The notes beneath the pieces are model-generated. The model was given only the letters and a program-made list of their open reading frames with translations. It did not search any database and was not told where the DNA came from. Source: Collimonas sp. PA-H2 (GTDB lineage: Bacteria; Pseudomonadota; Gammaproteobacteria; Burkholderiales; Burkholderiaceae_D). From it: DNA of 64,000 nucleotides. The stretch lies in assembly GCF_002564105.1 (NCBI RefSeq), contig NZ_PDBX01000001.1, positions 1,488,001 to 1,552,000 of the forward strand, given 5' to 3'. Position numbers and translations under genes: made by a program. Each line of letters opens with the position of its first letter. The first letter of the stretch is position 1. Below are positions 14,953 to 19,254 of the stretch, piece after piece.

Positions 14953-15315
14953 GGGGGCGACCTGGTTTCGACGTGGGTTACAAAGCAGCGCAGGGCATAC
15001 CGAGGACCGACTACCTCGTAAATACAATCGGAATAGATCTAACTGCAAACGATAACTCGTACGCACTAGCCGCTTAATAACCGGTTAGCTCTACACCATC
15101 TCGTCCCTGGGGTGGGCTGGTAAAACAGCAGTAGAGTCATTTACAGGGAATCGCTGTTAGCCGGGTTACTTGGCTGACAGTTAAATTTAGGTGACTCGCC
15201 TGAACGAAGCGTGTGCGTCCGCGTCGGCTGGGTTAAATCAAATGACAGCACTAAGTATGTAGAACTGTCTGTAGAGGACTTGCGGACGCGGGTTCGATTC
15301 CCGCCGCCTCCACCA
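14953..15315 (+). ncRNA. ssrA: transfer-messenger RNA (tmRNA)
   Basis: A 363-nt one-piece tmRNA that rescues stalled ribosomes. The 5' end GGGGGCGACC pairs with the 3' CGCCTCC to form the tRNA-like acceptor stem, followed by ACCA, so CCA is encoded. The T-arm GGTTCGATTCC is clear. The resume reading frame at 15045-15077 encodes the degradation tag ANDNSYALAA and ends in TAA, with the conserved ALAA terminus recognised by ClpXP-type proteases. It has its own promoter and terminator. The 3' end is partly duplicated about 1.5 kb downstream. Confidence 0.97.
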
Positions 15316-15322
15316 CCAATAC

Positions 15323-15351
15323 AAAAGGTCACCCAACGGGTGGCCTTTTTT
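15323..15351 (+). terminator. ssrA terminator
   Basis: AAAAGGTCACCC and GGGTGGCCTTTT form a 12-bp stem (one G-T pair) with a tight loop and a six-T tract. The ISL3 element is inserted right at the end of the T-tract, leaving the hairpin intact. Confidence 0.9.
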
Positions 15352-15353
15352 AT

Positions 15354-16667
15354 GGTTCTTCACGGATTACCGGGATAGGCGGCTTTAATCTTCAGGAAGA
15401 AGAAGGCGCTATCCCGGTATCCGTATGCCATGCGCTTCATCACTTTGATGCGATTGTTAATTCCTTCGAGCTGCCCTGTGTGCATCGGCCAGCGTACCCT
15501 GGCTATGATTCCACGCCAGTAGATTTTGAGCTTTTTGGCAAATTTCTGTAGTGGCTCGATGCTACTGTCATGGGCCATCTTTAGCCAGGCGCGCCAGGCG
15601 TTGCGCCAATGCCAAGCGCTAGTGGCCTGCCATAGTTCCTTCAGACTGGCCTTCATAATGTAGACCGTCATCAATGCTTTGTTTGCAGCTAGCAGTTCGT
15701 CCAATTTCGGCTGCTGCTCGGACGGCACGTTGCTGCGATTGCGCAACAACAGCCATCGGGCGCGCTTGACGACACGCCTCATAGGGAGATCGCCTTTAAG
15801 GCGATTGGCCTCGTCCACGCGCACCCTGTCGATCACCTCCCGACCGTATTTGGCAATCACATGAAACAGGTCGTAGACCACTCTGGCTTGCGGGCAATGC
15901 AGCTGGACTTCGAGGTCGAAAGCCGTATTCATGTCCATGGCCACTGCCTTTATATCGGCGCAACGCGCCGGCCCTAGCCATTCACAGAACACGCGAATTG
16001 CCTCTCTGCTACGACCCTCGCCAACCCAGAGAACGCGGCGCGTGTCGGCATCGAGGACAACCGTGGCATAGCGATGTCCTTTGAACAGCGCGAATTCATC
16101 CATCACTAGCCTGGTTGGCTGGGCGTCAGGCAGCTCAGCCAATTTACCCTCCAGGCGTTGTCGGTCGATCTTGCGCACCGTTTCCCAGTGCAGCCCGGAC
16201 AGCTTGCAGACGTGAGCCGCAGGTAGCTTCTCGCACCATAGACCAACGAATTGGGCCAGACGCTGAGTAATGCGTGCGTGCCGATCCAGCCACTTCACAC
16301 GCTCGGTGCGTGTGCCACAGGAATCGCAGCGCAGCCGCCGAAGATTCACCTGCAGCCACACAGAATCGCCGAGCATCGGCATGTCACGTATGGTGCGCCA
16401 GTAGGTCTCGTGAACTTGGGAACAAGATTGCTCACAGCCGGAGCAAATCATTGGCGCGCCGTCAGTGGGCACAAGGCTGATCCAAGTGCCGTCGTCGCGT
16501 CGGTCAAAATTCCAGACGCGAAAGCCTTCCCAGAATGGGAGGTCAAGATTATTATCCGTCATTGAAAGCGGTGGGGTTGGGTAGAAACTGTTGGTCGCAC
16601 AACAAGTTTAAACTTACTTCACCGCTTTCCCATTTCTAGATTACTTCCCGATAATCCGTGAAGAACC
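15354..16667 (-). mobile_element. ISL3-family insertion sequence, 1314 bp, intact
   Basis: Imperfect terminal inverted repeats begin GGTTCTTCACGGATTACCGG on the left and, read inward from the right, GGTTCTTCACGGATTATCGG. Both ends are flanked by the exact 8-bp direct repeat TTTTTTAT (15346-15353 and 16668-16675), the target-duplication length known for ISL3 elements. It holds one transposase gene on the minus strand that appears complete, so the insertion looks recent and potentially active. The target was the T-tract of the ssrA terminator. Confidence 0.95.
15360..16562 (-). CDS. tnpA: ISL3-family transposase
   Basis: DDE-type transposase of 400 residues with no stop or frameshift. An N-terminal zinc-finger/HTH region has CSGCEQSC and a second pair in RCDSCGTRTERV. 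The catalytic core is visible as VMDEFALFKGHRYATVV (first Asp), KAVAMDMNTAFDLEV (second Asp) and HTGQLEGINNRIKVMKRMAYGYRD (Glu), the last block being the hallmark of ISL3 transposases. The coding end lies inside the left inverted repeat, as is common in compact IS elements. Confidence 0.95.
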   Translation of the reverse strand: MTDNNLDLPFWEGFRVWNFDRRDDGTWISLVPTDGAPMICSGCEQSCSQVHETYWRTIRDMPMLGDSVWLQVNLRRLRCDSCGTRTERVKWLDRHARITQRLAQFVGLWCEKLPAAHVCKLSGLHWETVRKIDRQRLEGKLAELPDAQPTRLVMDEFALFKGHRYATVVLDADTRRVLWVGEGRSREAIRVFCEWLGPARCADIKAVAMDMNTAFDLEVQLHCPQARVVYDLFHVIAKYGREVIDRVRVDEANRLKGDLPMRRVVKRARWLLLRNRSNVPSEQQPKLDELLAANKALMTVYIMKASLKELWQATSAWHWRNAWRAWLKMAHDSSIEPLQKFAKKLKIYWRGIIARVRWPMHTGQLEGINNRIKVMKRMAYGYRDSAFFFLKIKAAYPGNP

Positions 16668-16688
16668 TTTTTTATTGGTGTTCGACGT

Positions 16689-16743
16689 GACAGGTATCGA
16701 GCCCGTGGCCGGAACGGACGCGGGGCGAAGACAGGGTTTCGGC
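16689..16743 (+). repeat. 55-bp dispersed repeat, copy 1
   Basis: Matches the copy at 18999-19053 at 47 of 55 positions without gaps. The conserved 3' half reads GGACGCGGGGCGAAGACA. The 5' half pairs imperfectly with it (CCCGTGGCC/GGACGCGGG), so it can form a REP-like hairpin. Confidence 0.75.
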
Positions 16744-16790
16744 AAGCATGCTTGCCGCTGTCTGAGCGGTTTTCGCCTGCAGGCGAAAAC
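16741..16790. repeat. two perfect palindromes in tandem
   Basis: GGCAAGCATGCTTGCC (16741-16756) and a 22-bp perfect palindrome at 16769-16790 with core CGCCTGCAGGCG lie 12 bp apart, between the IS and the second ssrA-like segment. Their function is unknown. Confidence 0.7.
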
Positions 16791-16796
16791 CAGGGA

Positions 16797-16837
16797 GATT
16801 CCCGCCGCCCCCAATACAAAAGGTCGCCCGAAGGGTG
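16797..16837 (+). repeat. partial second copy of the ssrA 3' end (left part)
   Basis: GATTCCCGCCGCC, then CCCAATACAAAAGGTC and a GCCC..GGGTG hairpin start repeat the ssrA T-arm, acceptor and terminator region beginning at 15296. About 5 bases around the acceptor/CCA are missing, so it is not a functional tRNA-like end. The copy continues at 17017 after the inserted element. Confidence 0.75.
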
Positions 16838-16838
16838 T

Positions 16839-16873
16839 AATGCCGTTCAGTCAAGACTGAACGGCATTTTTAT
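16839..16873. terminator. terminator-like hairpin at the left end of the MITE
   Basis: AATGCCGTTCAG and CTGAACGGCATT form a perfect 12-bp stem with a 6-base loop, followed by TTTTATT. It could terminate plus-strand transcription. Confidence 0.65.
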
Positions 16874-16884
16874 TTGCGGAACTC

Positions 16885-16983
16885 GTAGGGTGGGCACTCC
16901 GTGCCCACGCGGACGAGCCGGGGCACGAATGTCAGGGACACGAATATCCATGATACTGCGTGGGCACGGAGTGCCCACCCTAC
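16885..16983. repeat. REPIN-like inverted pair inside the MITE
   Basis: Two 26-bp arms (16885-16910 and 16958-16983) are exact reverse complements. Each starts GTAGGGTGGGCA and contains the nested palindrome GGGCACTCCGTGCCC. They are separated by 47 bp. Confidence 0.85.
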
Positions 16984-17016
16984 GCCATGTCGTTCTGCCC
17001 TAACTGAATAGCATTA

Positions 17017-17054
17017 GCCCGAATGGTGGCCTTTTGCATTGGTGTTCAACGGCT
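17017..17054 (+). repeat. partial second copy of the ssrA downstream region (right part)
   Basis: GGTGGCCTTTTGCATTGGTG followed by TTCAACG matches the sequence that would have continued from the ssrA terminator (15341-15353, then 16676-16687) before the IS inserted. With 16797-16837 it rebuilds one contiguous second copy. Confidence 0.7.
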
Positions 17055-17963
17055 TCAACGGTGGCCGGCAGATACCTTGATAAAATCGATAAACGCTCGC
17101 AAAGGAGCCGGCACCAGGCGGCGTCCTGGATAATAAAGAAACGGCCCCGAAAAGCGCGGCCACCATGGTTCGAGCACGGCTTCAAGTGCGCCGCTATCAA
17201 GATGGGGACGCAGCCAGTCCTCGAAGAGATAAAAAATGCCGCTGCCTGCGATTGCCGCTTCAACGGCGAGATCCGCGCCTCCCCCCGCCTGTACGATAAG
17301 CGGCCCTGTCGGATCAATTCGTAATACTTCTCCGTTCCGCTCAAACTCCCACGGCGGCATTGATCCACTGGAAAAGCGGCCGCGCAGACACGCATGGTCG
17401 AGCAGTTCGCGTGGATGTTTCGGCCGGCCATGCTGATCAAGGTAGGCGCTGGAAGCGACGGTGGCAAAGCGCTGGACGCGCGGCCCGATCGGCACCGCGA
17501 TCATGTCCTGTTCCAGCCTCTCGTCGTAGCGGATGCCGGCGTCGCACCCGGCCGCTATGACATCGACAAAACTGTCCTCGGTGAGGACCTCCAGTTGAAT
17601 GTCGGGATAGGCGGCGAGAAATGGCGGTACGATGCTGCCCAACACCAGCCGCGCCGCACTGACTGGCACGTTGAGGCGCAAGGTGCCGGCTGGCCTGTCG
17701 CGGAAACCGTTCACTACATCGAGTGCGGACTCCATTTCGCTCAGGGCCGGACTGAGCCGCGCTAGCAGGCCCTCACCCGCTTCGGTCGGAACCACGCTGC
17801 GCGTTGTGCGATTGAACAGCCGCACACCAAGCTGCGCCTCCAGGCGGCGTACCGCCTCGCTGAGCGCGGATGCGCTGCTGCCGCTTGCGCGCGCGCCATC
17901 GCGAAAGCCTTTGGCGCGCGCCACCACCACAAAGGCGTTGAGATCTCCCAGATCAACCTTCAT
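17055..17963 (-). CDS. LysR-family transcriptional regulator
   Basis: A 302-residue regulator with an N-terminal winged HTH (MKVDLGDLNAFVVVARAKGF, then SASALSEAVRRLEAQLGVRLFNRTTR) and a C-terminal effector-binding domain of periplasmic-binding fold. The start at 17963 is chosen because the HTH begins there; the frame stays open upstream to 18485 but that extension overlaps the divergent gene. It is transcribed away from an aldo/keto reductase 111 bp off, the usual arrangement for a LysR regulator controlling its neighbour. The effector is unknown. Confidence 0.92.
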   Translation of the reverse strand: MKVDLGDLNAFVVVARAKGFRDGARASGSSASALSEAVRRLEAQLGVRLFNRTTRSVVPTEAGEGLLARLSPALSEMESALDVVNGFRDRPAGTLRLNVPVSAARLVLGSIVPPFLAAYPDIQLEVLTEDSFVDVIAAGCDAGIRYDERLEQDMIAVPIGPRVQRFATVASSAYLDQHGRPKHPRELLDHACLRGRFSSGSMPPWEFERNGEVLRIDPTGPLIVQAGGGADLAVEAAIAGSGIFYLFEDWLRPHLDSGALEAVLEPWWPRFSGPFLYYPGRRLVPAPLRAFIDFIKVSAGHR

Positions 17964-18003
17964 TTGTTCGCAGCTCCACTGTTCGCCAATCCGCACAACC
18001 CGT

Positions 18004-18019
18004 ATTGATTGTACCCAAT
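18004..18019. promoter_or_regulatory. candidate LysR binding site
   Basis: ATTG-N8-CAAT lies midway in the divergent LysR/reductase gap and fits the interrupted-dyad pattern of LysR boxes. A single site is weak evidence. Confidence 0.35.
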
Positions 18020-18074
18020 TATCGTGGGAGCGGAAAAAGCCTACCATGGATCGTCTTTCATTTACAGGAGCACA

Positions 18075-18956
18075 ATGATGTCTGATATCCAACCATCCAC
18101 TAGCTTTGTACTTGGCGGCCGCACCGTAAAGCGACTTGGCTATGGCGCCATGCAGCTTGCCGGACCTGGCGTATTCGGTCCTCCCAAGGATAGTGACGCG
18201 GCACTGGCCGTGCTGCGCGAAGCCGTCGCGCGCGGGGTGAATCACATCGACACCAGCGATTTCTACGGCCCTCACGTCACTAACCAGTTGATCCGCGAGG
18301 CGCTGCATCCTTATCGAGACGATCTGGTCATCGTCAGCAAGATCGGCGCCAGGCGCGGCGACGACGGTTCGTGGATTCCAGCCATGTCGCGCGCAGAACT
18401 GACCCAGGCGGTCCACGACAATCTGCGCAATCTTGGTCTGGATGTGCTCGATGTGGTTAACCTGCGCAGCATGTTCGGTATCCACGGACCTGCCGAAGGC
18501 TCAATCGAAGAGCCGCTCACGGTGCTGGCCGAGCTCCAGCGCCAGGGTCTGGTGCGCCACATCGGACTGAGTAATGTGACTCCTGAGCAGATCGCGGAAG
18601 GACGCCGTATCTGCGAGATCGTCTGCGTGCAAAACCATTACAACGTGGCTCATCGGAAAGACGATGCCCTGATCGACAACCTTGCACGCGACGGTATTGC
18701 ATACGTACCTTACTTTCCGCTCGGCGGCTTTACCCCGCTGCAATCTTCTACCTTGTCGGATGTGGCTGCGCGTCTCGGCGTCACATCCATGCAGGTCGCG
18801 CTCGCCTGGCTGCTTCGTCGTGCGCCCAACATCCTTCTGATCCCCGGCACCTCATCTGTCGCGCACTTGCAGGAAAATCTGGCGGCAGGCACCTTGGCGC
18901 TGCCCGACGATGTGATAAAAGAATTAGACCAGGTAGCGAGCATCAGCGCTGCTTGA
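18075..18956 (+). CDS. aldo/keto reductase
   Basis: NAD(P)H-dependent oxidoreductase of about 293 residues with a TIM-barrel fold. Signature elements are GYGAMQLAGPGVFG, the active-site Asp in NHIDTSDFYGPHVTN (Asp and Tyr of the tetrad), the Lys in VIVSKIGARRG, and the C-terminal cofactor segment IPGTSSVAHLQENL. The RBS AGGAG (18066-18070) supports a start at 18075 or 18078 (MMSDIQPS) rather than the open frame from 18009. It is divergent from the LysR gene, which probably controls it. The natural substrate is unknown. Confidence 0.9.
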   Translation: MMSDIQPSTSFVLGGRTVKRLGYGAMQLAGPGVFGPPKDSDAALAVLREAVARGVNHIDTSDFYGPHVTNQLIREALHPYRDDLVIVSKIGARRGDDGSWIPAMSRAELTQAVHDNLRNLGLDVLDVVNLRSMFGIHGPAEGSIEEPLTVLAELQRQGLVRHIGLSNVTPEQIAEGRRICEIVCVQNHYNVAHRKDDALIDNLARDGIAYVPYFPLGGFTPLQSSTLSDVAARLGVTSMQVALAWLLRRAPNILLIPGTSSVAHLQENLAAGTLALPDDVIKELDQVASISAA

Positions 18957-18998
18957 CGCCGTACAAATGCCCATCGGGCAAAGTTGTCCGCATTTGAT

Positions 18999-19053
18999 GA
19001 CAGATTTCGACCCCGCGTCCGGCATGGACGCGGGGCGAAGACAAGGTTTCGGC
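18999..19053 (+). repeat. 55-bp dispersed repeat, copy 2
   Basis: Same orientation as the copy at 16689. Here the palindrome is perfect: CCCGCGTCC-GGCAT-GGACGCGGG. It lies 42 bp past the reductase gene, so the two copies bracket the LysR/reductase pair. Confidence 0.75.
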
Positions 19054-19254
19054 GACAACCCAAAGCATTTGTCAAAGTCCGCTCCGGGTCAAAGTGGGCG
19101 GCACGCAACAGCTATCATTCATGCTCGATTATTCCGTATACAAACTTTCCACTCAGACATAGAATCCGATGCTGCTGAGCATCGCAGCAATGTCTCTGCC
19201 ATTGTCATCATGGATAGACATGAACTACATTCAATTCATTCTGGGAGTCTTCTT

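Follow-up and report, generated by a model that had tools for sequence, protein, structure and literature searches.

In E. coli, tandem repeat units lie behind tyrT and tyrV. Copies of the tyrV 3' end stand at +158, +336, and +514 in strain K-12, and each unit contains GC hairpins and an inverted copy of the T-arm and closes by repeating the final 19-20 nt of the RNA, from the T-loop to CCA. When a tyrV unit is folded, the direct and inverted copies pair with each other, leaving CACCACCA. RtT RNAs are described as released from the tyrT transcript and as affecting the stringent response (PMC4986893). Mobile elements have also been connected with short structured sequences: the nine copies of ISRm22, an insertion sequence (IS) of the IS4 family, are reported to lie in REP elements (PMC1525189), and SPRITE is a MITE with a terminator-like structure (PMC10969869).

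We analyzed a window of 64,000 nucleotides of Collimonas sp. PA-H2 (genome G000, C1:1488001-1552000) that contains ssrA, the gene for tmRNA (Table 1). The initial annotation had described two direct copies of the ssrA 3' end and its terminator, each split by a different mobile element. Alignment without the inserts confirmed the pair (66 nt vs 60 nt), with a few substitutions in copy 2. That copy 2 is shortened at the acceptor/CCA also stands, but its left part is missing 6 nt there rather than about 5. With the ssrA end as query, copy 2 was recovered in a whole-genome search at E 1.7e-4, and second copies in congeners were recovered at E 1.6e-16 (G010), 1.1e-15 (G002), and 4.0e-9 (G005); therefore, the second copy is not a chance match. 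The spacer between the IS and the second ssrA 3' end is about 110 bp. The repeated ssrA end is part of a larger unit, together with a structured element and a decayed further copy. We consider it probable that the second ssrA tail is the end of a local, RtT-like tandem repeat unit, and that an IS and a terminator-seeking MITE arrived later.

Table 1. Features at and behind ssrA, in positions of the window
Feature	Position	Strand	Evidence
ssrA (tmRNA), tag ANDNSYALAA	14953..15315	+	ARAGORN; Rfam RF00023, 224.9 bits
Copy 1: ssrA 3' end from T-loop to CCA, terminator 1, TSD TTTTTTAT	15296..15353, resumes 16676-16683	+	
ISL3-family IS	15354..16667	-	inverted ends, TSD, transposase domain
Structured element of three hairpins: P1 (with part of the T-arm inverted), a (bulged), and b (palindromic)	16695..16790	+	covariance model R1, 91.6 bits; covariation in relatives
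Left part of copy 2, with GATTCCCGCCGCC and the left half of terminator 2, including left TSD (16826-16837)	16797..16837	+	
179-bp MITE, TIR type TAATGCYRTTCAGTT, in apex of terminator 2	16838..17016	+	
Right part of copy 2, made up of the right TSD (17017-17028) followed by the right half of terminator 2 (17029-17047)	17017..17047	+	
LysR-type regulator ORF	17055..18485	-	Pfam; homologous DNA in G005
Aldo/keto reductase ORF, cargo partner of LysR	18009..18956	+	PF00248, E 4.4e-53
Decayed further copy of the 5' part of the element	18998..19053	+	86% over 56 nt

In this reading, one unit comprises the ssrA sequence from the T-loop to CCA, an intrinsic terminator, an inverted piece of the T-arm, two to three GC hairpins, and the T-loop-to-CCA sequence again. 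The family would thus have a small RtT-like repeat unit behind ssrA, and the second ssrA 3' end would mark where this unit stops on its 3' side.

Fourteen congeners were compared. In three of them (G005, G002, and G010), ssrA is followed by terminator 1, the spacer, a second 3' end, and terminator 2, and both the IS and the MITE are absent; G010 carries a third 3' end in addition to two whole units. The annotation had placed both inserts after the repeats, and the G005 tract, which is the same without either insert, agrees that they are younger. One unit each is present in G003, G009, and G012. The terminator is present and the spacer element absent in G006, and other DNA stands right behind the ssrA CCA in G001, G004, G007, G008, G011, G013, and G014. 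Overall, the element adjoins ssrA in 7 of the 15 genus genomes (the window's included) and is displaced in an eighth, G014.

Farther downstream, the LysR-type regulator and the aldo/keto reductase lie as cargo between terminator 2 and the decayed further element in G000, with homologous DNA in G005. The flank beyond the decayed element in these two genomes is common to other congeners. A similar reductase 3' end precedes the shared flank in G009, without the decayed element, and in G003, G012, G004, and G011 there is no room for the pair between ssrA and the shared flank. The G000 array can be read as one whole unit, a second unit that would have been cut by the cargo, and a decayed remnant.

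Local duplication had been offered as the alternative to an island, and it fits better. Near-identical whole units of 162-225 bp are repeated in tandem in four genomes, G010, G090, G103, and G125. Between successive units, 174/179 positions are identical in G010, 161/166 in G125, 159/162 and 162/162 in G090, and 225/225 and 205/225 in G103. Duplication in tandem was probably by slippage or unequal crossing-over. As in RtT-type repeats, the units repeat the 3' end of the RNA gene in front of them. At least 17 nt of the direct ssrA 3' copy are kept in only 8 of the 33 family loci and 2 of the 6 genus loci tested (in the control, the best of 20 shuffles per target reached at most 12). In G110, one match to covariance model R1 adjoins ssrA and five more lie about 6.7 kb from it at 186-bp spacing; a reverse transcriptase and an rve-type gene are among the ORFs between ssrA and this distant array. 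In this reading the unit would be inherited vertically.

The structured element between the copies is conserved and covaries strongly: 21 sequences, chosen for clear elements so that they report on structure among elements and not on frequency, were aligned over four helices in three hairpins. Cells changed on both sides numbered 113, as against 34.3 (sd 4.4) after shuffling, and 91.6% of cells were paired, as against 31.6-42.8% in slid versions. Because template switching can keep palindromes perfect, this covariation is not proof of an RNA. The window element folds moderately better than shuffles (z -2.66). The G005 tract reaches z -10.16, but in its best fold the two terminators pair with each other and enclose the element; the repeats are therefore also competitors of the simple hairpins.

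A family survey for tmRNA covered 145 genomes and, with fetches, gave 110 ssrA loci (L089-L198). R1 matches were found in at least 94 of the 145 family genomes (28 candidates scored per genome) and in at least 5 of 184 class genomes, the window's own included (22 candidates scored per genome). At ssrA itself, 33 of the 105 family loci outside the genus have an R1 match (E <=0.01), which starts 46-95 nt behind the CCA. The other 72 have none at this threshold; one of these, L102, ends 3 nt behind the CCA and so could not show a match. In 9 of the 109 loci scored, an inverted copy of the ssrA T-arm (score >=17) lies no more than 300 nt downstream of ssrA.

Seven genomes (G061, G062, G030, G123, G128, G146, and G007) hold 23 to 28 dispersed R1 matches each (28 scored), mostly away from ssrA, so the hairpin core alone is not specific to ssrA. 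The dispersed copies that we viewed have hairpins a and b in common and are devoid of the ssrA parts, and ARAGORN placed an RNA gene in one of 40 loci fetched, namely ssrA itself. We read these copies as REP-like relatives of the hairpin core. Sub-threshold Rfam matches such as those to ftsZ-DE and microRNA families were taken as chance, and the tmRNA_permuted match over ssrA and its surroundings was taken as chance or as ssrA itself.

The ssrA units share with the E. coli repeats their tandem arrangement behind an RNA gene, and with the tyrV units also the closing copy of the last 19-20 nt of the RNA from the T-loop to CCA, the inverted T-arm copy inside the unit, and the GC hairpins. The period, 178 bp in E. 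coli, is 178 bp in G002 and 179 bp in G010. They differ in the RNA gene, in the bacterial class, and in having an intrinsic terminator inside each unit. Folding of inverted against direct copy varies: ACCA stays unpaired at the closed ends of the G002 and G010 units, the ends are paired in L130 and L156, and others fold otherwise. Rfam holds an RtT family model; RtT was absent from the Rfam matches of the window (gathering threshold), of positions 15250-19200 (E <=5), and of 20 loci (E <=0.5), and R1 does not match the E. coli RttR region. The ssrA unit is built like an RtT repeat; the layout is common to both, the sequence is not, and we do not claim membership. By analogy, the most likely role of the unit as RNA would be that of a back-up transcription stop combined with a putative tRNA-like, CCA-ended fragment cut from read-through transcripts, much as RttR reportedly derives from the tyrT operon. 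More tentatively, the family might possess a tRNA-like, CCA-ended, structured small RNA behind ssrA that was amplified in tandem, with an origin separate from that of the RtT repeats at E. coli tyrT. Among the literature matches listed, no ssrA-downstream repeat or terminator-seeking MITE was recognizable from titles and the starts of abstracts.

The two inserts belong to different families. That copy 1 is split by an ISL3 element is borne out by a target site duplication (TSD) of 8 bp, TTTTTTAT on either side (15346-15353 and 16668-16675), and by a transposase ORF of 400 aa (15360-16562; DDE_Tnp_ISL3, E 2.4e-64); the ends of the element are 22 bp long and 95% complementary. Eight bp is the usual TSD length for ISL3 elements, and the transposase and the TSD together place the insert in this family. 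The IS sits downstream of both the hairpin and the T-run of terminator 1, which leaves ssrA with an apparently intact terminator of its own. In the proposed sequence of events, the IS would have entered later behind this T-run, and the MITE would have entered the hairpin apex of terminator 2.

The split of copy 2 by a 179-bp MITE was likewise upheld, with a 12-bp TSD (GCCCGAAGGGTG/GCCCGAATGGTG, 11/12 matching). A search of G000 returned 177 matching pieces, about 36 copies by count. Of 36 loci examined, 35 had both ends and 33 were clear cases, in which the best TSD length was 12 (29 loci) or 13 (4 loci). A run of four T follows on the right flank in 34 of 35 sites (4.2% of random window positions), a stem of at least 5 is centered on the TSD in 28 of 35 (20.7%), and stem and T-run occur together in 28 of 35 (1.1%), the control (n = 3000 random positions of the window) being a coarse one. 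At its left end, the window MITE has a terminator-like hairpin of its own, then Ts. G000 has 78 MITE-end matches, but none of them form a pair spaced by 1-3 kb, and a full-length partner is thus not seen in this genome.

An IS with the same terminal inverted repeats (TIRs) as the MITE is present in G013 (C19:414980-416394; L071:9980-11394). It is 1415 bp long, encodes a 441-aa transposase of the IS4 family (NF033592, E 1.9e-80), and, like the window MITE, begins with a terminator-like hairpin. This IS abuts the right half of the terminator of a displaced ssrA unit; because its left flank is other DNA and no 12-bp TSD was found at its flanks, this copy alone does not prove the target. From the TIRs common to both elements and the sites that it occupies, we assign the window MITE to an IS4-related family that lands in terminators. 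Its place in copy 2 follows from this target choice and not from the history of an island. ISRm22 is reported in REP elements, whereas this MITE family goes into the apex of intrinsic terminators, with a 12-bp TSD. SPRITE and the window MITE both have a terminator-like structure; unlike SPRITE as described in that report, the window MITE has a terminator as its insertion target as well.

Three other origins of the second copy were considered. First, the element could be a REP/REPIN-type palindrome that was moved by a RAYT transposase and settled beside ssrA, with the ssrA copy hitch-hiking. REP/REPIN sequences and the ssrA element are both short bulged palindromes, some preceded by GTAG, with dispersed copies in several genera, and PF01797 matches occur in 18 of 20 genomes. 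By eye, the bulge is common and a number of copies have G-N-A-G before the palindrome; the tetranucleotide is GTAG in some copies and GAAG, GCAG, GGAG, or another in the rest. However, the ssrA element is fused to the ssrA 3' end and a terminator, and no R1 match (E <=0.01) was found at 14 Y1_Tnp loci, of 42 matches listed, the window genome's own lying outside the 14. G000 has one R1 match among 28 scored candidates, and the fixed position and inverted T-arm at ssrA would be left unexplained. We rejected mobilization by RAYT on the 14 loci checked, and we regard this origin as unlikely.

Second, copy 2 could be a degenerate second tmRNA gene, a whole-gene tandem duplication shrunk to its ends. 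The element contains GGGGCGA...GGTTTCG, which looks similar to the 5' end of ssrA, and CGCCTCCACCA, whole or in part, closes many units. In G083 a second partial tmRNA match stands beside ssrA and has an R1 match to itself (L195, G083:C1:1765935-1767691), which suggests that the entire ssrA locus was duplicated there. Yet the 5' resemblance is short and judged by eye, and the only Rfam tmRNA matches in the element on the ssrA strand are those that include ssrA's own end, which makes this origin highly doubtful. A second, weaker tmRNA match also lies 2.4 kb from ssrA on the same strand in G066 (G066:C1:60756-61090).

Third, the two copies could be attL and attR of a tyrosine-integrase island at ssrA, a reading with which the initial annotation had found them consistent; the island would here have been lost down to about 130 bp. 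The att cores of tRNA-type sites run from the T-loop to CCA, as the direct copy does, and the repeat covers the 3' end of an RNA gene. That ssrA is an island site was supported in relatives, where it is occupied and where, in four genomes, an integrase lies between ssrA and a displaced unit. These are G157 (ssrA C94:197647, integrase C94:231823, unit C94:234231), G134 (ssrA C22:188275, integrase 222319, unit 224365), G099 (ssrA C1:179761, integrase 180956, unit 200589), and, on the minus strand, G160 (ssrA C1:319647, integrase 318170, unit 312695). We viewed the far junctions in G157 and G099 and the DNA directly behind ssrA in G134, G099, and G160. Given this position of the integrase, the inserted elements use the end of ssrA proper, and the unit remains outside them. 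Such cases are of the kind that the initial annotation had called for, and in them the repeat unit is not part of the island. In a fifth relative, G014, other DNA follows ssrA (C41:73743), and a full tract of terminator 1, element, and terminator 2 lies 62 kb away on the same contig (C41:11.5-11.8 kb). None of the 17 PF00589 matches of G014 is on the contig with ssrA; the insert may be an island.

These displaced units, which lie outside the inserts in all five relatives, speak against the assignment of copies 1 and 2 as attL and attR. The loci examined included none with an island bounded by these two repeats; in the five relatives the inserts separate ssrA from the unit. What stands between the copies is, moreover, a conserved element that many genera have at a constant distance from the ssrA end. 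Nor was the expected integrase gene found adjoining one repeat, as none of the 17 PF00589 matches of G000 (E <=1e-5) falls within the window. An island scar is therefore disfavored and very improbable, and there is an equally slight chance that an ancient island seeded the first duplication. Most probably, the second tmRNA tail copy is one end of a small folded repeat unit, found behind the tmRNA gene in about a third of the relatives checked, rather than a trace of a lost island. Separately, 28-33-bp copies of the ssrA 3' end occur far from ssrA in G000 (C1:3590033, 510649, 3728728, 4108476, and 4107469) and in G005 (C1:4351387, where an integrase match ends about 0.7 kb upstream). No tRNA gene was found at these far copies in either genome, and they are possibly relocated or stacked junctions of other islands.

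A repeat pair at the 3' end of tmRNA is usually read as an island scar, and it can be an RtT-like unit left outside the inserts; therefore, calling an att footprint on the basis of repeats only can lead to error. The 33 family loci and those of the genus, with arrays of two to six units, provide a comparative set for testing RttR-like repeats. For a MITE, landing in the apex of a terminator and bringing its own terminator-like hairpin would be a low-cost insertion strategy. If the units do give rise to a CCA-ended small RNA, reiterated RNA-gene tails with a self-pairing inverted copy would be a general route to regulatory or decoy RNAs.
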